Part shown: piece after piece, positions 8,700 to 35,606 of the stretch
Numbering within the stretch: the stretch's first letter is position 1
Layout of the letters: each line of letters begins with the position of its first letter
Source of the DNA: Dechloromonas denitrificans
GTDB lineage: Bacteria; Pseudomonadota; Gammaproteobacteria; Burkholderiales; Rhodocyclaceae
Direction: 5' to 3'
DNA: 64,000 nt
NCBI RefSeq assembly: GCF_001551835.1
Contig: NZ_LODL01000040.1
Span: 112,336 to 176,335 of the forward strand
Translations under genes and position numbers: made by a program
The notes under the pieces: generated by a model
Databases searched by the model: none
What the model was told of the DNA's origin: nothing
The model's input: the letters and a program-made list of their open reading frames with translations, nothing else

Positions 8700-9845
8700 A
8701 TGCCCAAGGAAGAAACCGGCCTCAGTCTCGATGGTCAGGGCAAGCCGCTCTGGGTTTCGCTGGAACTGACCTATCGTTGCCCGCTGAAATGCTCGTGGTG
8801 CAACAACCCACTCGATTTTGAGGATTACGGTTCGCGCGAGCTGACGACCGAGGAATGGAAGCAGGCGCTGCGCGAAGTGCGCGAACTGGGCGCCCTGCAG
8901 CTCGGCTTCACCGGCGGCGAACCGCTGTTGCGCGAGGATCTGGAAGAGCTGGTCGCCTATGCCGACAGCCTCGGCTTCTACACCAACCTGATCACCTCCG
9001 GCATCGGTCTCACCGAAGAGCGCCTGCTCGCCCTCAAGGCAGCCGGCCTCAAGCATGTGCAGTTGTCGCTGCAGGCTACCAAGGGCGAACTGACCGATGC
9101 GCTGGTCGGCGCCCGGGCGCATGCGCTGAAGCTGGAGGCGGCCCGCCTGATCAAGGCGCACAACTTCCCGATGGTGCTCAACGTGCCGATCTTCCGGCAG
9201 AACATCGGCGAGGTCGATGCGATGATCGAATGGGCGGTGGCGCTCGGCATCGAATACATCGAATTCGCCAACATCCAGTATTACAACTGGGCCTTGATGA
9301 ACCGCGACGAACTGATGCCGAGCCTGGAGCAGATCAAGGCGGCGGAAGCGGTGGTCAATGCCTGGCGCGCCAAGCTCGGCAACACGATGACCATCTACTT
9401 CGTGATTCCCGACTACTACGAAGGTCGACCGAAGGCCTGCATGAACGGCTGGGGCGCCATTCATCTGACGCTGGCGCCGGATGGCGTGGCCATGCCCTGT
9501 CAGGAAGCGCGGGTGATTCCCGGGCTGGAGTTCATCTCGGTACGCGACCAGCCGCTCGGCTGGATCTGGCACGAATCGCCGCTCTTCCGCAAATATCGCG
9601 GTCTCGACTGGCTACCCGAGCCGTGCAGTTCCTGCTCCGAAAAGGAAAAGGATTTCGGCGGCTGCCGCTGTCAGGCGCTGCTGCTGACCGGCGACGCCGG
9701 CAATACCGACCCGGCCTGCAGCCGCTCGCCGCTGCATGGCGTGGTCAGGGATGCGGTGGCGGTCAGCGAGAAGCCTCTGCGTTTTAGAAAGCCGCTGGTC
9801 AAGCGCTCGGCCGGAGCGGTGTCCACGGCCTTCATGGAGGCCTGA
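8700..9845 (+). CDS. pqqE: PQQ biosynthesis radical SAM enzyme PqqE
   Basis: A 381-residue radical SAM/SPASM protein, the usual PqqE length. PqqE makes the Glu-Tyr carbon-carbon bond in the PqqA peptide, with PqqD as peptide chaperone. The radical SAM cluster motif CPLKCSWC (CxxxCxxC) is at residues 27-34, GGEPLL follows, and SPASM cysteines occur near the C-terminus (CQEAR, CSSCSEKEKDFGGCRC). The ATG at 8700 follows an AAAGGAA ribosome site. It leads an operon with four downstream genes at spacings of -4 to +5 bp. It is separated by about 30 kb from pqqB, pqqC and pqqA at 38903-40770, which is unusual. Confidence 0.95.
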   Translation: MPKEETGLSLDGQGKPLWVSLELTYRCPLKCSWCNNPLDFEDYGSRELTTEEWKQALREVRELGALQLGFTGGEPLLREDLEELVAYADSLGFYTNLITSGIGLTEERLLALKAAGLKHVQLSLQATKGELTDALVGARAHALKLEAARLIKAHNFPMVLNVPIFRQNIGEVDAMIEWAVALGIEYIEFANIQYYNWALMNRDELMPSLEQIKAAEAVVNAWRAKLGNTMTIYFVIPDYYEGRPKACMNGWGAIHLTLAPDGVAMPCQEARVIPGLEFISVRDQPLGWIWHESPLFRKYRGLDWLPEPCSSCSEKEKDFGGCRCQALLLTGDAGNTDPACSRSPLHGVVRDAVAVSEKPLRFRKPLVKRSAGAVSTAFMEA

Positions 9846-9850
9846 GCGAG

Positions 9851-9946
9851 GTGCGCCATCCCTACGACAGCGCCGCCGGCACCATCGCCCTCGGCCTCGC
9901 CCTGACCGTGGCCCTTGTCCTCCTCGTCCGCCAACTGGCCGGCTGA
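9851..9946 (+). CDS. 31-residue single-span membrane peptide, unknown function
   Basis: A GTG-initiated reading frame starts 5 bp after the pqqE stop and ends 5 bp before the next gene. The product is RHPYDSAAGT followed by about 17 hydrophobic residues (IALGLALTVALVLLVRQLAG), a clear single transmembrane helix with a short polar N-terminus. Its placement between two tightly packed genes and the single strong hydrophobic segment argue that it is real, although it is too short to show family conservation. It could assist the neighbouring PuuD-like membrane protein. It could also be a chance frame filling the gap. Confidence 0.45.
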   Translation: MRHPYDSAAGTIALGLALTVALVLLVRQLAG

Positions 9947-9951
9947 ACGGC

Positions 9952-10458
9952 ATGGATCACGCGCTGTTCGATCTGCTCGCCCGCTGGCTGCACCTGATCG
10001 CCGGCATCATCTGGGTCGGTCACAACTACGCCAGCGTCGTCCAGCGTCCGCGCTGGCAGCCGCTGGCGGCGAGCGACCTGAGCGAAGCGGGCGGCCCGCG
10101 CCTGCAGGCGGTAATCAACCGGGAGCACGGCACCTTTCGTTGGGCCTCGGTCGTCGCCTGGGGGGCCGGCATGTTCATGCTCTGGCAGCGCGGCTGGCTG
10201 CCCGGTGCCCTGACCTTGCAAGGCGGCCTGGCGCCGATCGGCATGGGAGCCTGGCTCGGCACCATCATGCTGCTCAACCTGTGGTTCGTACTCTGGCCGC
10301 ACCAGCAAAAGGTGCTCGGCCTGAAACCGGCCAGCGTTGAGGAAAGACTGCGCTGTTCGCGCATCACCCATCTGTCGTCGCGCACCAACACCATGCTCTC
10401 GGTGCCGCTGCTTTTCTTCATGGCCGCCGGCAGCCACGGCGGCGCCCTGTTCGGTTAG
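9952..10458 (+). CDS. PuuD-like membrane protein (urate hydroxylase N-terminal type)
   Basis: A 168-residue inner-membrane protein starting MDHALFDLLARWLHLIAGIIWVGHNY. The WLHLIAGIIWVGHNY block with its His residues, and the later membrane segments (GTIMLLNLWFVLWPHQQ and NTMLSVPLLFFMAA), resemble the membrane part of urate oxidase N-terminal-domain (PuuD) proteins. Longer family members carry a C-terminal cytochrome c domain that is absent here. Histidines within helices could bind heme. It is third in the pqqE operon, so a redox partnership with a quinoprotein is conceivable, but that is inference. Urate degradation is not otherwise represented nearby. Confidence 0.6.
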   Translation: MDHALFDLLARWLHLIAGIIWVGHNYASVVQRPRWQPLAASDLSEAGGPRLQAVINREHGTFRWASVVAWGAGMFMLWQRGWLPGALTLQGGLAPIGMGAWLGTIMLLNLWFVLWPHQQKVLGLKPASVEERLRCSRITHLSSRTNTMLSVPLLFFMAAGSHGGALFG

Positions 10459-21111: not shown

Positions 21112-23148
21112 TCAGGCCGCTTCCTGGGCGGCGAGCGGCAGCCAGAGGCGGAAGCAACTGCCCTTGCCGGGCTGGCTGGCGACATCCATCCGGCCGTGGT
21201 GCTTCTTGACGATGATGTCGTAGGAAATCGACAGGCCGAGACCGGTCCCCTTGCCGATCGGCTTGGTGGTGAAGAAGGGATCGAAAATCTTGTGGCGGAC
21301 TTCGTCCGTCATGCCTTGCCCGGTATCTTCCACCTCGAACCAGACATGGCCGTTTTCGGCACCGGAGCGGACGAAGATCTTGCCCTGCTGCGGAATAGCC
21401 TGAGCGGCATTGACCAGCAGGTTGAGGAAAACCTGGTTGATCTGGGCCGGAATGCAGTCGACGAGCGGAATGTCGCCGAATTGGCGGATCACCTCGGCCT
21501 TGTACTTCAGCTCGTTCCAGACGACGTTCAGCGTGCTTTCCATCGCCGCATTGAGGTCGGCCTGCTGGTGTTCGGCCTGGTCGACGTGCGAGAAGTCCTT
21601 CAGATCCTGAACGATCTTGCTGACCCGGCCCAGGCCTTCCTGCGATTCGGCGAGCAGCGAGGGCAGGTCTTCGCGCAGGAAATCGAGATCGGCCGTCTGG
21701 CGTGCCTGGGCGATGCTGGCCGGGTCACCGCCTTCGTAGGCGCTGATCACGGCCAGCAACTGGCCGACATAGGATTTCAGCGAACCGAGGTTGGAATTGA
21801 CGAAGCCGACCGGGTTGTTGATTTCGTGGGCGACACCGGCGGCCAGCTGACCGATGGCGGCCATTTTTTCCGACTGCAGCAGTTGCTGCTGGGCTTCCTC
21901 GACCTTCGACAGCAACTGCTCCAGCTCCCGGCGGTCTTTTTCCAGGCTGGCATTGGCTTCGGCCAGTTGCGAGGTGCGCCGGTCGACCAGTTCTTCGAGT
22001 TGGTTCTGGTACTGCCGCAGATCGTCCTCGGCGCGATGGCGGTCGGTGACATCCTGCAGCGTTTCGATCGCACCGACCAGTTTGCCGTTGGCATCGCGCA
22101 GCGGCGCTGCGGTAAAGAACAGCCAGATGCCGTCGCTGCCCAGCTTGGGAAAAAAGGTTTCCGCCTCGAAGGCGCCGGCAATCGTTTTCGAACGTTGAAA
22201 CATGCCGTGGTAGTAGGTCTCGAACTGCTCCTCCAGGCTGCCATTGACGATCAGGTCGGCCATCACCGGGCGCGGGCTGGGGTAGAAGATTTTCCACTGC
22301 AGATCGGTGCCGACCATTTCGCTGCTCGTCACGCCGCTGATCGCGGCACAGGCCCGGTTCCAGTGGGTGATGCGGTGGTTGGCATCGATCACGAAAGTCG
22401 GCACCGGGTCGCCATCGATGATCTGTTCGAGAAACAGCGCCATGTGCCGCTTGGTTGCTTCGCTGCGCTGGTGTTCGGATTCGAGCAGCTTTTTCTGGGT
22501 GATTTCGACCTGCAGCACGGCATTCTTCAGGCGTTCCTGCTCAAGCAACAGCGCGCTGTTGGTTGCGCTCAGTTCCTGGGTCCGCTGGGCGACCTGGCTT
22601 TCCAGGTTGGCGTTGAGTTTCTGCAGGCTGTCGTTGCGGCTGGCGATCAGCCGGTAGAGAGACTTCATCGCATCCAGCAGGCTGGAGGTGGTCGGGTCGG
22701 CGGCGCGTTTTTTCTCTTCAAGATAGACCATTTCAGCCGATTCGCCAGCGCGAATCCGCTGTACCTGGCGGGCCATCGACTGGTCCACGCCGAGAATGTG
22801 ATGGGCCAGCCAACTGGTCAGGAAGCGCAACAGGTCTTCGGTGCCGACGCCATCGCTGGAAAATTCGCGCATTCTGACCACCTGCTGGGCAAAGTCGCGA
22901 TGAATGGCGACGTGCTCGGCAATATGGCGGGGGTCGCATTTCGTCTCGGCCATCAGGCGTTCTTCATGGCCGAAATGGACCACGGCGTACTGGACCAGTT
23001 GGGCAAGGATCTGGTTGACCTCGGTTGCCGGCGTCTTGCTCGAGACCTTTTCGACGACCAGGTTGATGATGCGCACCAATTCCTGGTGTTCCGTGTCCAC
23101 GATGGCTTCGCCGGTCATGTAACGCTGGTCCCAGATGAATGCATCCAT
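21112..23148 (-). CDS. Bacteriohemerythrin-PAS sensor histidine kinase
   Basis: A 678-residue cytoplasmic kinase. Residues 1-130 are a hemerythrin domain with the di-iron ligand set in place: H21, H58, E62, H79, H83, H117 and D122. This suggests O2, NO or redox sensing. A coiled coil and a PAS domain (~245-360, [13 protein letters not shown]) follow, then a second coiled coil. The kinase core has the H-box [19 protein letters not shown] and ATP-binding motifs [20 protein letters not shown] and [10 protein letters not shown]. It has no receiver or membrane segment. It is the last gene of the nine-gene minus-strand operon, starting 2 bp after the REC-GspE stop. Confidence 0.92.
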
Positions 23149-23150
23149 GC

Positions 23151-25391
23151 TTATTCCTCTCCGGCCATCGGGCCAAGTACGCGCAAGATTTCTTCCAGCG
23201 TGGTACTGCCCGCCTGGATTCGTTCGACGGCATGGTGGGCGATGCTGCGCAAGCCCTTTTGCCGGACCTGGCGGCTGATTTCCAGCACGCTGGCGCCGCT
23301 GCCGATGCGGTCGCGGGTCTCGTTGTCCAGGGTCAGTACTTCATAGATGCCGACCCGCCCCTTGAGGCCGGTGCCGTGGCAGGTCGGGCAGCCCCGGCCG
23401 CGCCAGACGGTGTCGATGCCGCCGAACATCGGCCCGAGGCGGGCGCGGACCGCCGGGTCGGGCGCCGCTTCGGCCCGACAGTCGGGGCACACGCCGCGCA
23501 CCAAGCGCTGGGCGATGATGCCTTCGAGGGCGGTGGCGACGACATAGGGCTTCAGGCCGAGATCGAAGAGGCGGGCGATGGTCGCCACCGCCGAGTTGGT
23601 GTGCAGCGTCGAATAGACCAGGTGGCCGGTCAGCGCCGCGTGAAAGGCGACCTCGGCGGTTTCGAAATCGCGGATTTCGCCGAGCAGCACGACATCCGGG
23701 TCCTGGCGGAGCAGGGCGCGCAGGATGGCGGGAAAGGTCAGCCCGATCTTTTCGCGGACCAGTACCTGGCCGGCCATGTCGAGGTAGTACTCGACCGGGT
23801 CTTCGATGGTGACGTAATTTTTGTCCGGCGTCGCATCGTGCTGCAGCAGCGAATAGAGTGTCGTCGTCTTGCCGCTGCCGGTCGGGCCGGTGGCGAGGAT
23901 GATGCCTTGTGGCTTGGCCACCATGTCGGCGACGCGCGGCAGGTCGATGCTGGAGAAGCCGAGCTTCTCCAGCGAGTGCACCGTCGAGTTGCGGTCGAGG
24001 ATGCGCATCACCACTTTTTCGCCGTTGATCGTCGGCAGCGTCGAAATCCGCAGGTCGACCATGCGCATCGGCGTCTTGACGGTAATCCGGCCATCCTGCG
24101 GTCGCCGCCGTTCGGAAATGTCGAGTTCCGACATGATCTTCAGGCGGGAGACCAGCGACTGGTGCAGGTGGTGCGGAATGTGGATCTTGTCGGCCAGGAC
24201 GCCGTCGATCCGGTAGCGGACGACGACGCTCTTGGTGCGCGGCTGGATGTGGATGTCGGAGGCGCCGAGCCGGATCGCTTCGAGAATGATCGCATTGGCC
24301 AGCCGGATGGCGGGCGGCGCCTCGGTGTCGCGCAGCAGGTCTTCGAGCTTGGCGGCATCGTCGTCCTCGATGACGATCTCGATGCCTTCGTAGGGGTCGG
24401 GGGAACTGACCAGGGTTTCCAGTTCCTTGAAATCGACCTCGCCGCCGCCATAGAGGTCGTCGATCTTCTTGCGGATGGCGGCGACATCGGCCGTCACCGC
24501 ATTGATGTCGAGGCCGGCGGTGAACCTCACCTCGTCGATCAACCCTTCGTCGAGCGGGTCGGCCATCGCCAGCAGCAGGCGGCGCCCTTCCAGCTTGAGC
24601 GGCACGACCAGTTGGCGCTGGCAGAAACTGCGCGGAATCAGGTCGGCCAGCGCCGCATCGACCTGGAATTCGGGCAGTTGCACCTCGTCGATCATCATCT
24701 CGCTCTTCAGCAACTCGCGGATGCGGCGTTCCGGCACCCAATCGTGCTCGAGCAGCAGGCTGATTAGCGACTCCTTGCGGCGCTCCTGTTGCAGGGCCAG
24801 TTCCTGCAGTTGCGCGGCCGAGAGCAGGTTCTTCTTGTGCAGCATGATGCCGAGCCGGCTGCGATGGGTGGCGGCCAGGCGGGAAAGGGCCGAAATCTCC
24901 TTGGCCTTCTGCTCGTTCTCCGCTTTCAGGCTGCGGTTGCGGCTGATCAGGTCGAACTGCTCCAGCGCCAGGGCGACCGTGATGCGCAGGTCGTCGTCGT
25001 TCCACGGCTTGAGAATGAACTTGTAGACGGCGCCGTCGTTGATCGCGCCCATCACCGCATCGGTATTGGCGTGGCCGGTCAGCATGATGCGGATGGTTTC
25101 CGGCGAGCGTTTCTTGACCTCGTAGAGGAACTGGGCGCCGTTCATGCCGGGCATCATGAAATCGCTGATCACCAGGTGCACCGGGCCTTCAGCCAGCCGA
25201 TCGAGGCCTTCCTTGCCGCTGCCGGCGGTGACGACCTCGTAGTTTTCCTGGCGGAAAACGCGGCTCAGCGCCTTGACGATGCCCGGCTCGTCATCGACGA
25301 AGAGCAGTCGATAGCGCGGCGGCGTCAGGTGGGTGGCTGGGGCCTGCGGTGTACCGCTCTTGCCGGTAAAAAGTGAGGAATAGTCGGTCAT
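23151..25391 (-). CDS. Response-regulator receiver fused to PilB/GspE-type traffic ATPase
   Basis: A 746-residue fusion. REC domain (~27-145) with phosphoacceptor D77 in VISDFMMPG and K128 in KPW. A helical linker follows, then a GspE_N/MshEN-like domain (~178-315, starting RLGIMLHKKNLLSAAQLQEL). The secretion ATPase core includes Walker A ATGPTGSGKTTTL (~500), an Asp box region EDPVEYYLDMAG, Walker B VVLLGEIRDFETAEVAFHAA, His-box TGHLVYSTLHTNSA, and the tetracysteine zinc site CPDC...CPTC. Such ATPases power type IV pilus extension or type II secretion at the inner membrane. No pilus or secretin genes are nearby. It overlaps the upstream kinase gene by 4 bp, so its REC domain is probably phosphorylated by an operon kinase. 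Confidence 0.93.
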   Translation of the reverse strand: MTDYSSLFTGKSGTPQAPATHLTPPRYRLLFVDDEPGIVKALSRVFRQENYEVVTAGSGKEGLDRLAEGPVHLVISDFMMPGMNGAQFLYEVKKRSPETIRIMLTGHANTDAVMGAINDGAVYKFILKPWNDDDLRITVALALEQFDLISRNRSLKAENEQKAKEISALSRLAATHRSRLGIMLHKKNLLSAAQLQELALQQERRKESLISLLLEHDWVPERRIRELLKSEMMIDEVQLPEFQVDAALADLIPRSFCQRQLVVPLKLEGRRLLLAMADPLDEGLIDEVRFTAGLDINAVTADVAAIRKKIDDLYGGGEVDFKELETLVSSPDPYEGIEIVIEDDDAAKLEDLLRDTEAPPAIRLANAIILEAIRLGASDIHIQPRTKSVVVRYRIDGVLADKIHIPHHLHQSLVSRLKIMSELDISERRRPQDGRITVKTPMRMVDLRISTLPTINGEKVVMRILDRNSTVHSLEKLGFSSIDLPRVADMVAKPQGIILATGPTGSGKTTTLYSLLQHDATPDKNYVTIEDPVEYYLDMAGQVLVREKIGLTFPAILRALLRQDPDVVLLGEIRDFETAEVAFHAALTGHLVYSTLHTNSAVATIARLFDLGLKPYVVATALEGIIAQRLVRGVCPDCRAEAAPDPAVRARLGPMFGGIDTVWRGRGCPTCHGTGLKGRVGIYEVLTLDNETRDRIGSGASVLEISRQVRQKGLRSIAHHAVERIQAGSTTLEEILRVLGPMAGEE

Positions 25392-26590
25392 GGCGGGGCC
25401 GGGAAAAAGATGCTGACGGTTGTCCCGCCGTCGGGCTGGCTGTCGAGCGTGATCCGGCCGCTGTGGGCGAGCACGATGTTGCGCGCCGTACTGAGGCCGA
25501 GGCCGACGCCGGCACCGACCGGGCGCGTCGTGTAAAACGGCTCGAAGGCGCGTTCCAGTTGGGCCGGCTGCATACCGATCCCATCGTCGTGGATGCGGAT
25601 GGCGATGCCCGCCTCGCTCGCTTCCGACGAGATTTTGATGTTGCCCGGCCGGCTGGCATCCTGGATGGCCAGCATGGCATTGCGGATGAGATTGAAAAAG
25701 AGCTGGTTGATGTGGCCTGGCAGGCAGATCAGACGGGGCAGCGGCAGCAGGTCGAGCTGGATGTCGATGCCGGCCGGTAGCTGTTTTTCGACGATGCCGG
25801 CGGCCTGCTGCAGGCAGTCGTTGAGGTCGGTGAATTCCTCGCTGGCCCGGTCGACATTCGAGAAGGACTTGAGGTCGGCGACGATGCGGGCAATGCGCTC
25901 CAGCCCCTTGGTGCATTCCTGCAGCAGGTCGACGCCGTCCTCCAGCACGAAGTCGAGATCGAGCTTTTTCCAGGCGGCCAGGTCGGTGCCCAGTGCGATC
26001 TTCAGTTCGCCGAGTTTCTCCAGGTATTTCTTGAAAGTGGACAGGTTGCTGCGCACGAAGCCGAGCGGGTTGTTGATCTCATGCGCCATGCCGGCCGCCA
26101 ACTGGCCGACCGAAGCCAGTTTTTCCGCCTGGTAGAGCATTTGCTGGCGTTCTTCGAGGACAGCGACCTGCTTTCGGACGCGTTCTTCCAGTTCTTCCGA
26201 CAGCGCCTTGTAGCGGGCTTCCGATTCACTGAGCCGGGCGTGCTCGCGGCGCAGCGACTCGAAGTCTTCGGCGACGGCTTCGAGGTGCAGGGTGGACGCC
26301 ATGCGGAAGCGGACTTCGGCCCGGAGTTGCATTTGCAGCAGATTGCGCGCCGCCGTCAGGCGTCCGCTATCGCTTGCCTGGCCGAGCAGGTAGCCGATCG
26401 GCTCCAGTTCGAGAATCAAGGGCAGCCGCTGTGCGCCGGGCGGGGCGATGCCCCACAGGGTATGGCCGGCGGCATCGGTAATTGCCAGATCGCTAGCGAG
26501 CAGGGGGCGCAGGTTGGCGCCGAACTGTTCGAGCAGCGGGCCGTCGAGCAGTTCGCCCAGTTGCCATTCGCGGTCGAAGGCCTGGCTCAT
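25388..26590 (-). CDS. Sensor histidine kinase, cytoplasmic
   Basis: A 400-residue kinase starting MSQAFDREWQLGELLDGPLL. The N-terminal ~110 residues look like a small sensory domain (ASDLAITDAAGHTLWGIAPP). A coiled coil follows (LRREHARLSESEARYKALSE), then the H-box MAHEINNPLGFVRSNLSTF and the ATPase motifs FFNLIRNAMLAIQD, DDGIGM and GVGLGLSTARNIV. The start at 26590 overlaps the GTPase gene by 4 bp (ATGA), and the 3' end overlaps the REC-ATPase gene by 4 bp. This translational coupling to both a MglA-type GTPase and a traffic ATPase suggests it is a direct partner of both. The signal is unknown. Confidence 0.9.
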   Translation of the reverse strand: MSQAFDREWQLGELLDGPLLEQFGANLRPLLASDLAITDAAGHTLWGIAPPGAQRLPLILELEPIGYLLGQASDSGRLTAARNLLQMQLRAEVRFRMASTLHLEAVAEDFESLRREHARLSESEARYKALSEELEERVRKQVAVLEERQQMLYQAEKLASVGQLAAGMAHEINNPLGFVRSNLSTFKKYLEKLGELKIALGTDLAAWKKLDLDFVLEDGVDLLQECTKGLERIARIVADLKSFSNVDRASEEFTDLNDCLQQAAGIVEKQLPAGIDIQLDLLPLPRLICLPGHINQLFFNLIRNAMLAIQDASRPGNIKISSEASEAGIAIRIHDDGIGMQPAQLERAFEPFYTTRPVGAGVGLGLSTARNIVLAHSGRITLDSQPDGGTTVSIFFPAPP

Positions 26591-27234
26591 GCCGCTTGCC
26601 CCATGGCACCGGCGACGAAGGCCGCTTCGTCGAGGCCGTGCTGGCTGGCCAGCCCGTATTCCTCGGCAAAGCGCCGGTAGACCGAGCGGAGCAGCGTGGC
26701 CAGCGTGCTGTCTACGCCCTGGCCGCTGAGTGCAATGGAAAAGACCAAGGGCCACGGTGCCGACGCCCAGCGCCCGCGGACTTCGCTTTCCGGCGTTGCG
26801 GTAGGCAGGTCACACTTGTTGAACTGAACGACCAGCGGCAACTGGTTGAAGTCGATGCCGACCCGGGCGCAGTTGTCGGCCAGGCTCTGGAAGGATTCGC
26901 CGTTGTTGGTTTCCTGGGCGCGGTCGGCATCGGCGACGAAGACGACGCCGTCGGCCCGTGACAGCACGGCCTTGCGGGTGCCGTCGTGGGCGACTTGGCC
27001 GGGGACGGTGAACAGCCGGAATTTGATCAAAAGCCCGGAGGGGGCGCGAAAGCCGAGCGGCAGCAGGTCGAAGAACAGTGTGCGGTCGTCCTTGGTCTCC
27101 ATGGTCATGACCTCGCCCTTCATTTCCGGCGCCAACTGGTCGTGCAGGCGCAGCAGATTGGTCGTCTTGCCGCTCTGCGCCGGCCCGTAATAAACCAGCT
27201 TGAAGGTCAGGTGCCGCGGATCGCTTTCGGGCAT
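26587..27234 (-). CDS. MglA-type small Ras-like GTPase
   Basis: A 215-residue GTPase. The P-loop is YYGPAQSGKTTN (~15-26), the switch II region is FTVPGQVAHDGTRKAVLSRA (PGQ in place of DxxG, as in MglA), and the base-specificity motif is VQFNKCDLP. In MglA proteins the GTP state marks a cell pole and recruits motility or pilus machinery. Here it is co-translated with a histidine kinase and lies one gene from a PilB-like ATPase. No MglB (roadblock) gene is present next to it, so the GAP would have to be elsewhere or be replaced by an operon protein. Family identity is firm; the polarity role is inferred. Confidence 0.9.
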   Translation of the reverse strand: MPESDPRHLTFKLVYYGPAQSGKTTNLLRLHDQLAPEMKGEVMTMETKDDRTLFFDLLPLGFRAPSGLLIKFRLFTVPGQVAHDGTRKAVLSRADGVVFVADADRAQETNNGESFQSLADNCARVGIDFNQLPLVVQFNKCDLPTATPESEVRGRWASAPWPLVFSIALSGQGVDSTLATLLRSVYRRFAEEYGLASQHGLDEAAFVAGAMGQAA

Positions 27235-27240
27235 CGCCGT

Positions 27241-27807
27241 TCAGCTTTTGTCGAGAAACTCGGGGTCGAGGACGACCGAGCCGTCCGGTCCCCAATTGAC
27301 TTCGGTGATGCCCGGCTCGATCTTTTCCAGGCGTTCGGCTTCCAGTTTTTCGGCGGTCGTGTCGCCCATTTCGAGGCGGACCAGATTGGCCAGCTGGCGG
27401 TTTTCGAGCAGCAGTTCGCGATGGGCGAGGGCCTGGCCGATGGCCGACATCAGCTCGTAGTCATTCCACGGCTTGCCGATGAAACGGTCGATGCCGACTT
27501 CGTTGACCGCCCGCATCAGCGCATTGAGGTCGGCGTAGCCGGACAGGATCAGGCGCGCCGCGTCGGGCTGGATGGCCTTGGCGGCCTTGAGGAACTCGAC
27601 GCCGTCCATGCCCGGCATGCGGTAGTCGCTCATGAAGAGATCGAAATCTTCCCGGTGGGTTGCGGCCAGCGCCTCCTGCGGCGAACTGAAAGCCTGCACC
27701 TCGAGCGCGAAAGTCTTGTTGCCGTAGGTGCAAGAGGCCAGGCGCAGGACGCGTTGCAGGGATTTGAGGATGGATTCCTCGTCATCGACGATCAGGATGC
27801 GACTCAT
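27241..27807 (-). CDS. Single-domain-type response regulator with C-terminal extension
   Basis: A 188-residue protein. Residues 1-125 form a receiver with acidic pocket DDEE (8-11), phosphoacceptor D61 in FMSDYRMPGMDG and Lys in GKPWND. The remaining ~60 residues contain a short helix rich in Leu/Arg (RELLLENRQLANLVRLEMGD) and an unrelated C-terminal tail ending VNWGPDGSVVLDPEFLDKS. There is no DNA-binding or enzymatic output domain, so it may be a phosphorelay intermediate or a protein-protein regulator, for example of the GTPase encoded 6 bp downstream. It overlaps the HD-GYP gene by 4 bp. Confidence 0.88.
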   Translation of the reverse strand: MSRILIVDDEESILKSLQRVLRLASCTYGNKTFALEVQAFSSPQEALAATHREDFDLFMSDYRMPGMDGVEFLKAAKAIQPDAARLILSGYADLNALMRAVNEVGIDRFIGKPWNDYELMSAIGQALAHRELLLENRQLANLVRLEMGDTTAEKLEAERLEKIEPGITEVNWGPDGSVVLDPEFLDKS

Positions 27808-29120
27808 TTTTCCTCCTGGCGAATATAGAGCGTCAGCGTTTGTTGTTCGGCTTGTTCCATGCGGATCAACTGCCCGATGATCTCGCTGGTCAGCGCACTG
27901 CCTTTGGCGAGCAGCATGTAGCCGTCGCGGTGGGTCAGGTCCCGGCTCAGCGTCATGCCCGGCTTCAGGTGCATGGTGCGCAGCGGCAATTCGCTGGTCG
28001 CCGGCTTTTGTGTTTCGGAAATCAGCTTGACGAAGGCGTCGACCGCAACCGGGTCGTAGCGCTTGCCGCGATTCTCGATCAGGAAGCTCAGTGCTTCGCT
28101 CGCTTTCAGCGGGCGCTGGACCAGTGTGCCGATCTGCAGCGAGTCGTATTCGTTGACCACGCTGAGAATGCGGGCGCCTTGCGGAATCGCGATGCCGGCC
28201 AGGCGGTCGGGGTAGCCGCTGCCGTCGTAGCATTCGTGGTGATGGCGGACGAGCAGTGCGGCGTCCTTGAATTTCTCGATGCCCATCAGGATGTTCTGGC
28301 CGATCACCGGGTGCTTCATGACCATGGCGCGCTGCTCGCCGCTCAGCGTGTTGTAAGCCTTGCCGAGCAGTTCGTCGGGCAGGCCGAGCTTGCCGATATC
28401 GTGGAGCAGGCCGGCCAGCATGATGTTCTGGACCTCGGCGTCGGGCAGCCCGATGCGCTTGGCGACGCTGCGCGCCTGCTCGGCGACGCGCCGGCCATGG
28501 CCGGCGGTCAGGCTGCCGACTGGGCCGCTGCGCAGTTCGATGACCCCGGCAAAGACCTGGACGCTGGTCAGGAAGGCCTTTTTCAGTTCGCCATGCGATT
28601 GCTCGACAAAGCTCAGGGCCTGGCGCAATTCGGCGGTGCGTTCGGCCACCTTCTGTTCCAGGCTGGCGTTGAGTGCTTTCAGTTCCTCATTCTGGGCCTG
28701 GGTAAGGGCGGTCAGGCGCCGGTTTTCGCTTTCCAGGCGCTGCCGTGCGGTGGCCTCGCGGACGATGCTGACGATCTCATTGTCGTCCCACGGCTTGGCG
28801 ACATAGCGATAGATCTCGCCTTCGTTGATCGCGGCCACCGTCGAGGTGATGTCGGCGTAGCCGGTGAGCAGTACGCGCATGACCTGCGGCCAGCGGCTGC
28901 GGACCTGCTTGAGAAAGGTGGCGCCGTCCATTTCCGGCATCCGCATGTCGGAGATGACCAGGTCGATCGTCTCCTTTTCGAGAATCTGCAGACCGGCGGC
29001 GCCGCTTTCGGCAATGAAGATGCGATAGCCGTGCGGCCGGAAAAGGCGCCGCAAGGCCGACAGGATGCCCGGTTCGTCATCGACGAAGAGCAGGGTGGGG
29101 GAGGCGACGGCCTCGCTCAT
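27804..29120 (-). CDS. REC-HD-GYP cyclic-di-GMP phosphodiesterase
   Basis: A 438-residue response regulator. REC domain 8-125 with D58 in VISDMRMPEMDG, coiled coil ~125-180, HD-GYP domain ~185-385 with H240-D241 in LLHDIGKLGLPDELL, HHHECYDGSGYPDRL (GYP at 302-304) and further metal-ligand histidines. A small C-terminal segment follows (MHLKPGMTLSRDLTHRDGYM) of the kind often found after HD-GYP. All catalytic motifs are intact, so it should hydrolyse c-di-GMP. It overlaps its neighbours by 4 bp on each side. With the EAL protein two genes upstream it gives the operon two distinct types of c-di-GMP hydrolase. Confidence 0.93.
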   Translation of the reverse strand: MSEAVASPTLLFVDDEPGILSALRRLFRPHGYRIFIAESGAAGLQILEKETIDLVISDMRMPEMDGATFLKQVRSRWPQVMRVLLTGYADITSTVAAINEGEIYRYVAKPWDDNEIVSIVREATARQRLESENRRLTALTQAQNEELKALNASLEQKVAERTAELRQALSFVEQSHGELKKAFLTSVQVFAGVIELRSGPVGSLTAGHGRRVAEQARSVAKRIGLPDAEVQNIMLAGLLHDIGKLGLPDELLGKAYNTLSGEQRAMVMKHPVIGQNILMGIEKFKDAALLVRHHHECYDGSGYPDRLAGIAIPQGARILSVVNEYDSLQIGTLVQRPLKASEALSFLIENRGKRYDPVAVDAFVKLISETQKPATSELPLRTMHLKPGMTLSRDLTHRDGYMLLAKGSALTSEIIGQLIRMEQAEQQTLTLYIRQEEK

Positions 29121-32100
29121 GATGAAATCTCCGAATCTTGTTTCTCAGGCGTCGGCTGCGGGCGCAAGGGGAGCAGCAGGCGGAAGGTGCTGCCGGCACC
29201 CGGCTGGCTCTCCACCTCGATGTGGCCTTGATGGCGCTCGACGATGCTGTACGACAGGGAAAGCCCGAGTCCCGTGCCCTTGCCGACCGGCTTGGTGGTG
29301 AAGAAGGGCTCGAAAATGCGGTTGAGGTGTTCCGGCGCAATGCCCTTGCCGGTGTCGATGAACTCGAGGCAGACCATGTCGTCGCCGTGCCGGCGGGTGC
29401 GGATGGTGATGCTGCCCTCTTTTTCGATGGCGTGGCCGGCATTGACCAGCAGGTTCATGAAGACCTGGTTCAACTGCGAGATCAGGCAATAGACGTGCGG
29501 AATGTCGCCGTATTCCTTGATCACCTTGCACTTGTACTTGAGTTCGTTCCAGACGATGTTCAGCGTCGAGTCGATACCCTGCTGGAGGTCGGCTTCCTGC
29601 CATTCCTGTTCGCCGACGCGCGAGAAGCTCTTCAGGTCCTGGACGATCTTGCGGACGCGGCCGAGGCCGTCCTTCGATTCGGCCAGCAGGCTGAAAATGT
29701 CCTGCTTGATGAAGCTGTAGTCGCGCTCTTCCATCAGGCGATGGACGCCGGCCAGTTGCTGAGCATCGACGCCGCCCGTATCGGCCAGCTTTTCGTAGGC
29801 GGCGATGATCGCCATCAGGTCGTGCAGGTAGCCGTCGAGGGTCCCGAGGTTGGAATGCACGAAGCCGATCGGATTGTTCAGTTCATGCGCCACGCCGGCG
29901 GCGAGCTGGCCGATCGAAGCCATTTTTTCCGACTGCAGCAATTGCTGGCCGGCATCTTCCAGCCGCTTGTTCAGCTTTTTCTGCTGCGCCAGTGTTTCGG
30001 CCAGTATCAGTTGCTGCGTCTTGCGCTCGGTGATGTCGGTCAGTACGCCATCGTAGAACTCGACCTGGCCGCTGACGTCACGCTGGACAATCGTGCGGTC
30101 GACCACCCAAATCACCTTGTTTTCGGCGGTCAGCAGCCGGTATTCCTGCTCGTAGCCGGCCAGGCCGGCCGCCGTATTCCTGCTCACCTCGTCGACGACG
30201 CGGGCCAGGTCGTCGGGGTGCACCAGTTCGGCAAACTGCGGCTGCCCGGCCTTCAACTGGTCGGCGGTGTACCCCCAGCGCCGGACGTTGTCCGAGACGA
30301 AGACCACCGGCCAGCCCTCGCTGGCCGCCCAGCGGAAGCAGATCACCGGGCTCGCATTGACCACTTGGGTGGCCAGGCGCAGGGCGTTTTCGGAGCGTTG
30401 CCGGCGGACGATGCGCCAGGTTTCGTTAGCGATCAGTTGTACCGTCTCGATATCGAATTCCGAATAGTCGCCGCCCTTGTTGCCGACGCCGGTCACCATG
30501 CGGACGATGCTGCCATCCATCACCGGCACGCTGAGAAAACGGGTGAGGTCCGAGTGCCCGGCCGGCAGGCCGTGTTTGTTGGCAGCCGAGGTGTAATCAT
30601 TGATGACGACCGCCTCTTTCCGGCGTGCCGCATCCGCCCACAGGCCGGCTTCGCTAAGTGGGTAATGGTTGTTGAAGGTGGCGTGGCAATACTTTTCCAG
30701 CGTGCTCTTCGACCAGGCAACCAGTTCGATGCTATCGCCATCGTCATTGACGAAATGCATGAAAGCGATCGAGCTTTGCGTCAGTGTCTCGGCACATTCC
30801 AGCGCGTACTGCATGAAGGCCTGCTCCGCCATTTCCTCGGCTTTTTTCGGCAACTCCAGCAATACCGCCGAGCGCTTGATCTGCAGGGCCAGGTTGAGTT
30901 CCGCCAGATGACGCGTCGTCACGTCGAGCGTGATGCCGCCGAGCCAGGGCGACTCCTTGTCGCGCGGGATGATGAATTTGGTGCTCTCGTAGTGGCGGCC
31001 ATTGAAGGCAAGCTCGGTCGTTTCGGTGGTGCCGGTGGCCAGGATGCGCCGGTCTTCGGCGACCATCGTCCGGCCGGCTTCGTCGGGGAAAATCTCTTGC
31101 GGACTGCGCCCGAGAATGTCTTCGCTACGCAGGCCGAGTGCATTGACAAAACGCTTGTTGGCAAATAGCGTATGCGATTCGGCATCCTTGACGTAAACCG
31201 CGCCTGGCAGATGGTCGATAAACCCCTGCAGGGTCTGGACCAGTTGGTCGCGCGCCTGGTCGGCCAGTACCCGGTCGGTGATGTCTTCGATGACTACGGC
31301 AAAGCAGTCGAGTGCGCCATCCGGCTTGCGGATGCCGCAGGCCGCGATATAGGCGTGCAGGATGCTGCCATCGCGGCGAATGAAGCGTTTCTCCAGCGTA
31401 TAGGCGTCCGCCTTGCCCTTGATCACCGATTCGTATTGCGCCTCATTGAATTTCAGGTCGTCCGGGTGGGTCATCTCGGCCCAGGTTTTTTCCACCAGTT
31501 CACTGGCTGAATAGCCGAGGAGCCGGCAGAGGGCGGGATTGACCTCGATCCAGCGGCGGTCGAGCGAAGTCCGGGCGATACCGACCATGGCATGGTCGAA
31601 GATGGTGCGGAAGCGTTTTTCCGCCTCGCGTTCGCGGGCCTGACTGCGTTGCAGGTAATAAATGGCGGCACCGAGCAGCAGCAACAGGAGGCCGGTGAAT
31701 AGCCATTTTTCGTTGGTGGCCGGGCGGGTCAGGGCCGCCAGTTGGTCATTGCCCAGGTGCGAGACGACCAGCCAGCGGTAATCGTCGCTCGCTACCCCGG
31801 CACCGCTGCCGGCCGGATAGGGCAGCACGCTCTGGTAAGTCCACAGCCCGTGCTGGTCGGTAAATTGTCCGTTCGCCGCCTGCAGGCGCTGCCAACTGTC
31901 GGGGTAGCGAGCGGCCAGGCTGCGACTGGCATCGTTGAACATGAATCCCCACTCGTCGGCGGCATTGGGGGCATGCAGCCAGTAGCCGGCGCTGTTGAGC
32001 AGCGCGAGGTGCTTGCCGCTGGCCTCGCCAGAACTGACGAAGTGTTTGAGCAGCGCATCGCCGAGGTAGTTGAGGACGACGATGCCCTGCTTGTTGCCTT

Positions 32101-32656
32101 GCCGGTCGGCGACGGCGGTGGCGACGCGCAGCATCGGCTTGAAGGGTTTTTCGATCTGGCCGTTGTCGACATTCAGATCGAGCGGCGAAAGATAGATCCG
32201 GCCGGCCTCGGCCTGCATCGCCTCGCGGAAGTAATAGCGATCGGCCTTGTTTTGCAGTTTGTCGGCGGGCACCAGCCGGCCCTGGCCATCCCGCAGATCG
32301 ACCCGGATCACTTCCTGGCCGGCCTGGTTGATCCAGCGGATCTGGTCGTAAACCTTTTTGGCGCCCGAAAGATTGATGAAACTGCTTTCCAGCCGGCGAA
32401 TTTCAGCGGAGGCCGGATTGTTGGCCAGTTGCTGCGGCGTCAGGTCACCGGCGATATACGCGATGTCGCCGAGCACCCCGTCCATCTGGCGCAACAGCGT
32501 CGTCGCGGCCAGTCCGACATCGAGCGTTTCCTGGTGCTTGATCTTGTCGAGCCGGTGGTTTTCCTCGCTGTTGCTGTAGAACATGCCGGCCAGCAGGATG
32601 GCCAGTGCGCCGGGAACGAACAGCCTGAGAAATGCGAAAAGCGGGCTACTGGTCAT
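29117..32656 (-). CDS. Large membrane sensor histidine kinase with multiple PAS and GAF domains
   Basis: An 1179-residue kinase. An N-terminal helix (LRLFVPGALAILLAGMFYS) and a second one near 310 (WLFTGLLLLLLGAAIYYLQ) bracket a ~280-residue periplasmic sensor of dCache type (YYFREAMQAEAGRIYLSPLD). Then come PAS (MVGIARTSLDRRWIEVNPAL), a second PAS (GAVYVKDAESHTLFANKRFV), a GAF domain (LTQSSIAFMHFVNDDGDSIE), a third PAS, and the kinase core with VAHELNNPIGFVHSNLGTL, VFMNLLVNAGHAIE and GTGLGLSLSY. The start at 32656 (MTSSPLFAF) overlaps the preceding gene by 11 bp. It shares the unusual HE(I/L)NNPxGFV H-box with the other two cytosolic-type kinases of the operon. Confidence 0.9.
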   Translation of the reverse strand: MTSSPLFAFLRLFVPGALAILLAGMFYSNSEENHRLDKIKHQETLDVGLAATTLLRQMDGVLGDIAYIAGDLTPQQLANNPASAEIRRLESSFINLSGAKKVYDQIRWINQAGQEVIRVDLRDGQGRLVPADKLQNKADRYYFREAMQAEAGRIYLSPLDLNVDNGQIEKPFKPMLRVATAVADRQGNKQGIVVLNYLGDALLKHFVSSGEASGKHLALLNSAGYWLHAPNAADEWGFMFNDASRSLAARYPDSWQRLQAANGQFTDQHGLWTYQSVLPYPAGSGAGVASDDYRWLVVSHLGNDQLAALTRPATNEKWLFTGLLLLLLGAAIYYLQRSQAREREAEKRFRTIFDHAMVGIARTSLDRRWIEVNPALCRLLGYSASELVEKTWAEMTHPDDLKFNEAQYESVIKGKADAYTLEKRFIRRDGSILHAYIAACGIRKPDGALDCFAVVIEDITDRVLADQARDQLVQTLQGFIDHLPGAVYVKDAESHTLFANKRFVNALGLRSEDILGRSPQEIFPDEAGRTMVAEDRRILATGTTETTELAFNGRHYESTKFIIPRDKESPWLGGITLDVTTRHLAELNLALQIKRSAVLLELPKKAEEMAEQAFMQYALECAETLTQSSIAFMHFVNDDGDSIELVAWSKSTLEKYCHATFNNHYPLSEAGLWADAARRKEAVVINDYTSAANKHGLPAGHSDLTRFLSVPVMDGSIVRMVTGVGNKGGDYSEFDIETVQLIANETWRIVRRQRSENALRLATQVVNASPVICFRWAASEGWPVVFVSDNVRRWGYTADQLKAGQPQFAELVHPDDLARVVDEVSRNTAAGLAGYEQEYRLLTAENKVIWVVDRTIVQRDVSGQVEFYDGVLTDITERKTQQLILAETLAQQKKLNKRLEDAGQQLLQSEKMASIGQLAAGVAHELNNPIGFVHSNLGTLDGYLHDLMAIIAAYEKLADTGGVDAQQLAGVHRLMEERDYSFIKQDIFSLLAESKDGLGRVRKIVQDLKSFSRVGEQEWQEADLQQGIDSTLNIVWNELKYKCKVIKEYGDIPHVYCLISQLNQVFMNLLVNAGHAIEKEGSITIRTRRHGDDMVCLEFIDTGKGIAPEHLNRIFEPFFTTKPVGKGTGLGLSLSYSIVERHQGHIEVESQPGAGSTFRLLLPLRPQPTPEKQDSEISS

Positions 32657-35606
32657 TGGCTGGCGGGGGCGGGCTGTGCGGGTGCGTGTCCTTGGCCAGT
32701 CGGAAGGCTTCGCGGATCTGTTCGCGCAGTTGGTCGTCATCCCATGGCTTGGTCAGGAATTTGTAGATCGCGCCGCGATTGATCGCGCCGGTGACCGAAT
32801 CGAGATCGGTGTAGCCGGTGAGCACGATGCGGATGGTGTCCGGATAGAGTTGGCGGACCCGGGCAAAAAACTCGGTGCCCGACATGTCCGGCATGCGCTG
32901 GTCGGAAAGCACCACCTGAACGCTATGTTTGGCCAGGTGTTCGAAGGCTTCGGCCGGCGACTGTGCGGTCAGGATCTGGAACCCTTCGCGGCGCAGCAGG
33001 CGCGAAATCGAGGTCAGGATATGCGGTTCGTCATCGACGACGAGCAGTGTCTGGCCGCTGTCGCGCGGCTTGTCGACCAGCGGCAGCCGTTTGTTGCTGG
33101 CCAGCAGTTGTTCGAATTCGGCGGGCGGCAAGGGGCGGCTAAACAGGAAGCCCTGCATCGCATCGCACCGTCGGCCGCGCAGGAAGTCGGCCTGAGCTTC
33201 GGTTTCCACCCCTTCGGCGAGGACCGACAGGTTGAGGCTGCGCGCCATGACGATGGCGGCGGTGGCAATCGCCGCGTTGACCGGGTTTTCGATAATGTCG
33301 CGGACAAAGCCCTGGTCGATCTTGATCTTGTCGAAAGGAAAGCGCGAGATGTAGGCCAGCGACGAATAGCCGGTCCCGAAATCGTCGAGCGAGAGTTTGG
33401 TGCCGAGCGCCTTCAGGGCCTGGCACTGGACGATGGCTTCCTCGATGTCGTCGATGAAGGCGCTCTCGGTGATTTCCAGTTCCAGGGCGCTCGCCGGCAG
33501 CCGGCTTTCGGCCAGCGCCTGGCGGACGACGCCGACCAGGTTGGCCTGGCGAAACTGGCGGGTGGACAGGTTGACGGCCACCCGCAGGTTGGCCAGGCCG
33601 AGGTCCAGCCATTGCCGGGTCTGCTGGCAGGCGGTGCGCAAGACCCATTCGCCGATCGGCAGGATGAGCCCGGTTTCTTCGGCAATCGGGATGAATTCGA
33701 GCGGCGAGATGGCGCCGAACTGCGGGTTGTTCCAGCGCAGCAGGGCTTCCATGCCGATCATGTTGCCGCTTTCGAGGCTGATCTGCGGCTGGTAGTGCAC
33801 CGCCAGTTCCTGGCGCGTCAGCGCCTCGCGCAGCGCGGCTTCCAGCCCGAGACGGCGGGCCGCATCGGCATCCATTTCCGGCGAGTAGAAGCGGAAGGTG
33901 TTGCGGCCGCTTTTCTTGGCGCGGAGCAGCGCCGTATCGGCGCTTTTTAGCAAGGTATCGGCATCGACGCCGTTACGCGGTGCGACGCTGATGCCGATGC
34001 TGGCGGTGATGACGACCGACTGCCTGTTGATCTCGAAGGGAACTGCAATTGCATCGAGCATGCGCTGGGCGAGGGCGATGGCGTCCCGTTCATGGCCGAG
34101 GCTGCCCATGACGAAGCCGAACTCGTTGCCCGAGCGCCGGCCGACGGTATCGCCATCCCGCACCTGCAGGCCGAGGCGACGGGCGACTTCGACCAGGACC
34201 TCGTCGCCGACCGGTGGCCCGAGCGTGTCGTTGATCAGTCGGAAGCGGTCGAGATCGAGCAGGATGACGGCGGTCTCCCGCTTGAAGCGGTGGGCGCTGA
34301 TCAGCGACTGGCCGAGGCGGTCGGCGAACAGGTTGCGGTTGGGCAGGTTGGTCAGCGGGTCGTAGCTGGACAGGTACTGGATGCGCTCGGCGGCGCTCTG
34401 CCGTTCGGAAAGGTCGCTGAAGATGCCGACGTAGTGCATCGGCTGGCCGTGTGCATCCTGGACGGCCGAAATGCTCAGCCATTCGGTGATCAGTTCGCCA
34501 TCCTTGCGTCGGTTGGTGATTTCGCCCTGCCAGTTGCCGTGCTGGTTGATGCAGTCCCACATTTCCCGGTAAAAGGCCGGGCCATGCGCGCCGGATTGAA
34601 GAAGGCGCGGGTTCTGGTTGATCACGTCGTCGAGGCAGTAGCCGGTGACCTTGGTAAAGGCGGCGTTGATCAGCAGGATGGCGCCCTGGGGGTCGGTAAT
34701 GCAGATGCCGTCGTTGATCCCGGCAAAAACCGCCGCGGTCAGCCGCTGTTCGGCCTCGACCGCCTTGCGCCGGCTGATGTCGGCCATCGTGCCGAGGACG
34801 AGCTGCGGCTTGCCCTCGGCGTCGCGGCGGATGACCCGGCCGCGTACTTCCAGCGTCACCCAGTGGCCGGCCTGGTGCTGCAGGCGCATTTCCGCGAGGT
34901 AAATCTCGTCATCCCCGGTCAGCGCCTCGGCCATGCCCTTTGCCACCGTATCGCGGTCTTCCGGATGGATCAGCGACTGAAATTCGCCGATGTTCGGCGG
35001 ACCGCTTTCCCGGCCCAGCATGCGGGCCAGGGAGTCGCTCCAGCGCATGTTGCCGGTTTGATGGTCGTGTTCCCAGGTGCCGAAGCCCGTGGTGGACAGC
35101 GCCACCTGCAGGTGGGCGTTGAGCTGGTTGTTTTCCGCAACCCGGCGGCTGACCTCCTGTTCCAGCCAGAGTTTTTGCCCGGCCAGCAGGTCGCGCGAGC
35201 GTTTCAGTTCAAGGTGGCCCTCGACCCGGGCCCGCAACACCGCCGGTTTGATTGGCTTGGTGATGTAGTCGACGGCGCCTTCGTGCAGGCCGGCTTCTTC
35301 TTCCGCGGGGTCGGTCAGGGCGGTGACGAAGATGACCGGGATGTCACGGGTTTCCGGCTGGGCCCGCAATTCGGCGAGGACGGCATGACCATCCATGCCG
35401 GGCATCATGACATCGAGCAGAATGAGGTCGGGGCGGGGTTCGAGCCGGGCATAGCGCAAGGCGGTCGGGCCGTTGGTGGCGGCCCGGACATCGACGCCGA
35501 GGGCGCGAATCATTTCGGAAATGGCGCTCAGGTTGTCCGGGATATCGTCGACTGCCAGAACGATCGGTTTGCTGCCGCCCCCTGCTTCCCATTCCGGATG
35601 TCTCAT
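32646..35606 (-). CDS. REC-PAS-PAS-GGDEF(degenerate)-EAL-REC signalling protein
   Basis: A 986-residue cytoplasmic protein with an N-terminal receiver (LILLDVMMPGMDG), two PAS domains (~190-300 and ~310-420), a GGDEF domain (~430-590), an EAL domain (~605-850) and a C-terminal receiver (VVLSDQRMPDMSG). The cyclase signature is RRSGNEFGF, so GG-D-E-F is replaced by SGNEF and cyclase activity is unlikely. The EAL domain keeps MEALLRW, ESAFIDD, LDDFGTGYSSLAY, KIDQGFVRDI and AEGVETEAQ, so c-di-GMP phosphodiesterase activity is expected. The degenerate GGDEF may act as a GTP sensor. Receivers at both ends are rare and suggest input from two kinases. Second gene of the operon. Confidence 0.92.
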   Translation of the reverse strand: MRHPEWEAGGGSKPIVLAVDDIPDNLSAISEMIRALGVDVRAATNGPTALRYARLEPRPDLILLDVMMPGMDGHAVLAELRAQPETRDIPVIFVTALTDPAEEEAGLHEGAVDYITKPIKPAVLRARVEGHLELKRSRDLLAGQKLWLEQEVSRRVAENNQLNAHLQVALSTTGFGTWEHDHQTGNMRWSDSLARMLGRESGPPNIGEFQSLIHPEDRDTVAKGMAEALTGDDEIYLAEMRLQHQAGHWVTLEVRGRVIRRDAEGKPQLVLGTMADISRRKAVEAEQRLTAAVFAGINDGICITDPQGAILLINAAFTKVTGYCLDDVINQNPRLLQSGAHGPAFYREMWDCINQHGNWQGEITNRRKDGELITEWLSISAVQDAHGQPMHYVGIFSDLSERQSAAERIQYLSSYDPLTNLPNRNLFADRLGQSLISAHRFKRETAVILLDLDRFRLINDTLGPPVGDEVLVEVARRLGLQVRDGDTVGRRSGNEFGFVMGSLGHERDAIALAQRMLDAIAVPFEINRQSVVITASIGISVAPRNGVDADTLLKSADTALLRAKKSGRNTFRFYSPEMDADAARRLGLEAALREALTRQELAVHYQPQISLESGNMIGMEALLRWNNPQFGAISPLEFIPIAEETGLILPIGEWVLRTACQQTRQWLDLGLANLRVAVNLSTRQFRQANLVGVVRQALAESRLPASALELEITESAFIDDIEEAIVQCQALKALGTKLSLDDFGTGYSSLAYISRFPFDKIKIDQGFVRDIIENPVNAAIATAAIVMARSLNLSVLAEGVETEAQADFLRGRRCDAMQGFLFSRPLPPAEFEQLLASNKRLPLVDKPRDSGQTLLVVDDEPHILTSISRLLRREGFQILTAQSPAEAFEHLAKHSVQVVLSDQRMPDMSGTEFFARVRQLYPDTIRIVLTGYTDLDSVTGAINRGAIYKFLTKPWDDDQLREQIREAFRLAKDTHPHSPPPPANDQ

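Follow-up and report, generated by a model that had tools for sequence, protein, structure and literature searches.

In Acinetobacter baylyi, TfpB has been shown experimentally to be a second extension motor working on the same pilus (PMC8213720). In Myxococcus, MglA-GTP promotes the formation of type IV pili through SgmX, which positions PilB (PMC7519303). Both the route from MglA to a pilus motor and the two-component control of extension ATPases have been studied mainly through long, indirect pathways. MshEN domains that bind c-di-GMP carry two motifs of the form RLGxx(L/V/I)2xxG...LxxxLxxQ, and combinations of this domain with a receiver (REC-MshEN) have been mentioned in general terms (PMC5013675).

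Here, we analyze a locus of Dechloromonas denitrificans in which three neighboring genes that are inherited together encode a GTPase, a histidine kinase and a motor, the motor itself bearing the receiver. This cassette, in the order MglA GTPase, HK2 and REC-ATPase, is apparently undescribed and constitutes the new content of this report: in the open-licence literature searched we found no description of it, nor of the fusion in such a setting, and a 2024 PilB review (PMC11656802) makes no mention of a receiver-fused PilB in the passages searched.

A receiver fused to a traffic ATPase

The window, the whole stretch of 64,000 nucleotides analyzed, carries an operon with the following features, all on the minus strand.

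32646-35606, minus strand: REC-PAS-GGDEF-EAL-REC protein, first gene of the overlapping operon (Pfam)
29117-32740, minus strand: HK3, multi-PAS/GAF histidine kinase, alternative start 32656 (Pfam)
27804-29120, minus strand: response regulator of REC-HD-GYP type (HD_5; Pfam)
27241-27807, minus strand: RR, single-receiver response regulator with a C-terminal tail, often but not always present (Pfam, locus comparison)
26587-27234, minus strand: MglA-like GTPase, Group-1 type (R51 finger beside T52, TVPGQ at 76-80), ATGA overlap with HK2
25388-26590, minus strand: HK2, soluble histidine kinase (His170) with an unclassified N-domain, ATGA overlap with the ATPase start
23151-25391, minus strand: RecPilB, the REC-ATPase (REC-MshEN-T2SSE traffic ATPase), 746 aa (translation, Pfam, 49 orthologues)
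24954-25313, minus strand: receiver domain of the REC-ATPase, residues 27-146, with D33/D34, D77, T105 and K128 (Pfam, residue check, orthologues)
24447-24863, minus strand: MshEN-like domain, residues 177-315, with degenerate c-di-GMP motifs (motif inspection, orthologues, model)
23172-24323, minus strand: T2SSE ATPase core, residues 357-740 (Pfam, residue check, orthologues)
21112-23148, minus strand: HK1, hemerythrin-PAS histidine kinase, 2 nt after the ATPase gene (Pfam)

The initial annotation had singled out the reading frame at 23151-25391 as a receiver fused to a complete PilB/GspE-type ATPase and had given no strand; the plus strand of this interval holds mechanical open reading frames only. 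Pfam assigns the protein a Response_reg domain (residues 30-138, E 1e-23), an MshEN domain (237-318, 1e-19) and a T2SSE domain (357-737, 1e-124), and its closest PDB relatives are the PilB ATPases of type IV pili (top match 5zfr, 439 bits). The core contains Walker A (502-509), the Walker B glutamate E572 and zinc cysteines at 635, 638, 668 and 671; with its T2SSE domain, Walker A/B and tetracysteine zinc site the protein has the hallmarks of a PilT/VirB11-like extension ATPase, and its N-terminus displays in sequence the acidic pair, phospho-Asp, Thr/Ser and Lys of a receiver. Both the intact pocket (D77, K128) and the full set of ATPase and zinc motifs read from the single protein hold in an alignment of 49 REC-ATPases from Beta- and Gammaproteobacteria, where every sequence has D33, D77, T105, K128, K508, E572 and the four zinc cysteines and all but one have D34 (48 of 49). 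Compared with the window protein, these orthologues average 0.85 identity in the ATPase core, 0.48 in the zinc/C-terminal part and 0.72 in the receiver, which is thus more conserved than the MshEN_N part (0.56).

The fusion is not a chance event, since residues 1-378 are conserved at 55-99% identity across the best 80 loci of a scan of named-genome contigs; a scan of viral contigs with the REC-ATPase gave a single weak match, to residues 29-95 only. In a structure model whose domain arrangement is uncertain (pTM 0.48), the last helix of the receiver is predicted to continue unbroken as far as residue 173, N-terminal to the helices of MshEN, and the MshEN-like region to consist of a four-helix N part and an alpha/beta C part. 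N-terminal to the receiver (25317-25391, minus strand) lies a motif, MxxYxxLFTG, that is recognizable in 45 of the 49 orthologues and could possibly serve as a docking peptide.

A co-inherited MglA-HK2-REC-ATPase cassette

Missing from the initial annotation were the MglA GTPase and the three-gene cassette, the more informative part of the picture. Among solved structures the GTPase matches MglA (E about 1e-42), MglA chains being its best PDB hits. Group-1 MglA proteins are recognized by an Arg beside the G2 Thr and by TVPGQ in G3 (PMC4316618); here R51, T76 and Q80 are found in 42 of 43 aligned sequences, and T52 and VPG in all 43. A search of the host genome for the Roadblock protein MglB gave no Robl_LC7 match at E 0.001, and by this measure the host does not have an MglA/MglB system.

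The AHE phosphoacceptor region of HK2 is invariant. Its N-terminal domain (26261-26590, minus strand) bears conserved FDRExxLxELL and ELEPxGYL motifs and yielded no sequence relative in Pfam or the PDB, neither search pointing to a Roadblock/MglB-like identity; the model of this region, with pLDDT >90 over most of residues 11-140, consists of helices, four strands and then a long helix, and Foldseek with full-length HK2 returned kinase-type structures only among the top 50.

The scan of named-genome contigs kept only the best 80 REC-ATPase loci. These loci include Dechloromonas, Azonexus, Zoogloea, Aromatoleum, Thiobacillus, Sulfuricella, Gallionella, Rubrivivax and Formivibrio as well as gammaproteobacterial groups such as Chromatiales and Ectothiorhodospiraceae. 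MglA and HK2 lie directly upstream and in the same direction in 77 of 77 assessable loci, the contig being too short for the check in the other three (L102, L141, L143); a strict tblastn count gave 75, to which L124, with a 400-nt gap, and L129 were added from inspection of the loci. The commonest spacing from HK2 to the ATPase is a 4-nt overlap. In L077 MglA is split across two reading frames, and in L153 HK2 was recovered at 37% identity. L129, from a metagenome-assembled genome, has an additional receiver-like stretch between HK2 and the ATPase (around 9398-10368) that may be an assembly error.

Co-occurrence follows the same pattern. Among 299 genomes of the family, MglA was found in 34 and the REC-ATPase in 34-35 (G090 is a receiver-only match and G164 is truncated by a contig edge), with 33 genomes carrying both (Fisher p about 1e-41, uncorrected for phylogeny). 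Across a phylum sample of 398 genomes the REC-ATPase occurs in four, and MglA in 4/4 of those. Two genomes, G025 and G680, retain MglA and HK2 without the REC-ATPase, so the pair can exist alone; in G025 the remaining operon is present and only the ATPase gene is missing. A further genome, from the same genus as the window (G202, L244), keeps GGDEF-EAL, HK3, HD-GYP, RR and HK1 and lacks exactly the trio between RR and HK1. At L058 the trio and the other five operon genes are on opposite strands. The trio is therefore an independent unit, which in the window genome sits within a larger signaling operon. Taken together, these findings suggest that the cassette forms a self-contained unit controlling the motor of a type IV pilus.

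The MglA of G025 (L189, 9568-10326) has lost both catalytic residues (R51S and Q80K), although the HD-GYP, RR and HK1 genes beside it share 76-79% identity with those of the window. Loss of the ATPase does not always erode MglA catalysis, since MglA of G680 keeps R51 and Q80.

That a two-component system feeds straight into the motor through the fused receiver, as first read from the window protein, is well supported on comparative grounds by the invariant pocket and by the kinase gene directly upstream in every assessable orthologue. HK2 may not be the sole kinase: at the positions predicted to set kinase specificity, mapped on the basis of work on T. maritima HK853, HK1, HK2 and HK3 have almost identical residues, and the alpha-1 helices of the receivers are alike, so that cross-talk among the kinases within the operon is possible. 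Several loci in Zoogloea and others hold the trio only; HK1, RR and HD-GYP genes are missing from their surroundings, and HK2 is the only linked kinase of the set. The hemerythrin-PAS region of HK1, encoded directly downstream of the ATPase gene, could provide an oxygen or NO input.

A candidate accessory extension motor and its probable machine

We consider it somewhat probable that the cassette is a three-gene unit with the REC-ATPase as its output, in which the receiver is the phosphorylation target of the kinase, and an accessory extension motor, once licensed by MglA-GTP, works on the shared type IVa pilus (T4aP) machine. HK2 would sense a cytoplasmic cue through its unclassified N-domain, autophosphorylate on His170 and pass the phosphate to D77 of the motor-fused receiver. 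The receiver, which a single long helix (about 132-173) connects with the N1 domain of MshEN, would then change how the ATPase hexamer assembles or how active it is. MglA-GTP would act on the REC-ATPase unit, placing or licensing the motor at the pole or the machine, as in the positioning of Myxococcus PilB via SgmX, and the REC-ATPase, which has no platform protein of its own, would resemble TfpB in acting as an accessory extension motor under certain conditions. Direct MglA-PilB binding was not detected in a M. xanthus two-hybrid assay (PMC7519303), which counts against this model. More tentatively, the MglB-less MglA might bind the kinase or the receiver-motor directly, its GTP state and phosphorylation jointly setting where and when the accessory pilus motor fires; the role of GAP, GEF or effector would then fall to the receiver or to the N-domain of HK2.

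The host encodes more motors than platforms. Its six PilB/GspE-type ATPases, accompanied by three PilT-like ones, comprise the REC-ATPase, PilB (NCBIfam, 830 bits), a TfpB orthologue (908 bits), an MshE-like protein and two others; four loci encode T2SSF platform proteins, always beside an ATPase, which leaves only the REC-ATPase and TfpB without a platform gene. Since no T2SSF platform gene lies near the cassette, we infer the target machine. The TfpB orthologue is encoded on the window's own contig (L063, G000:C40:53001-73000), again with no adjacent platform gene.

The REC-ATPase itself belongs to none of the named classes. It scores below the cut-offs for canonical PilB (TIGR02538, 538 bits against 675.65; no pilC linkage), GspE (TIGR02533, 537 against 630.25) and TfpB (NF053534, 437 against 850), and it forms, apart from PilB, TfpB, MshE and GspE, a clade of 100/100 support with an unsettled deeper placement.

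These observations bear on other readings of the motor. One is that the REC-ATPase is a regulator rather than a pilus motor, forming mixed hexamers or competing with PilB, MshE or GspE so that its phosphorylation tunes another motor. The missing platform and the presence of a canonical PilB in all five REC-ATPase genomes checked would fit, as they fit an accessory motor, and so would the ATPase-ATPase interactions by BACTH reported in the PilB review (PMC11656802). We nonetheless regard this reading as unlikely because Walker A and E572 show no variation, nor do the ATPase core and the zinc cysteines, so that catalysis by the REC-ATPase is under selection. Service to a type II secretion or MSHA-type system through one of the other three platform loci appears less likely still: the near-equal scores of the GspE and PilB models, the unsettled deep branching of the clade and the four platform loci of the host would allow it, but the precedents for MglA are T4aP and gliding, each other platform already has an adjacent ATPase, and another genome (G214) keeps the cassette with no member in the MshE clade.

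The initial annotation had proposed that phosphorylation at the receiver, and possibly c-di-GMP at the MshEN domain, may both gate the motor. Comparative evidence backs the first half, and motif losses across the 49 orthologues speak against the second. Its description of motif I (RLG from 179 to Q202) as partly kept and of motif II as degenerate was accurate: in motif I the Arg is Q in 39 of the 49 and the Gly is A in 30, with Q202 kept in 47, and in motif II all 49 have replaced R by P/S/A, G by I/L/V and Q by D/E/H. The REC-ATPase thus does not carry the two motifs of a c-di-GMP-binding MshEN domain, whereas both are intact in the host's own MshE-like paralogue. In favor of dual gating, the MshEN domain persists, motif I keeps Q202 together with some of its hydrophobic residues, the operon encodes GGDEF-EAL and HD-GYP enzymes of c-di-GMP, and binding may not depend on perfect motifs (PMC5013675). 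Even so, dual gating is very improbable and c-di-GMP gating an unlikely explanation: the losses resemble those of Xanthomonas GspE, reported not to bind c-di-GMP (PMC5013675), and some trio loci have none of the c-di-GMP genes of the window operon.

Comparison with known systems

Because the three genes are adjacent and the receiver sits on the motor, three purified proteins and three gene deletions allow tests of how phosphorylation controls a pilus ATPase and of the coupling of that ATPase to a small GTPase, and Dechloromonas, Zoogloea and Aromatoleum include culturable carriers.

The cassette shares features with several described systems. Like MshE and related ATPases, the REC-ATPase has an MshEN + T2SSE architecture, but it differs in its degenerate c-di-GMP motifs, its extra N-terminal receiver and its separate clade. 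Conservons and the actinobacterial G-protein systems (CvnA-D) likewise join a histidine kinase and an MglA-family GTPase in a fixed gene set; they have an MglB-type protein and a Group 2 GTPase, however, and no receiver or motor output. Closer is the Myxococcus pathway of MglA, MglB, RomR, SgmX and PilB, with its Group-1 MglA (Arg finger, TVPGQ), its two-component input and an extension ATPase as the likely target, whereas here the host lacks MglB, receiver and motor are one protein and the genes form one cassette. The closest functional precedent for the REC-ATPase is TfpB: it has no receiver domain and no linked MglA or kinase, and the host carries a separate TfpB orthologue, but it too is a PilB-like ATPase that occurs alongside canonical PilB, is encoded away from a platform gene and forms a clade of its own.
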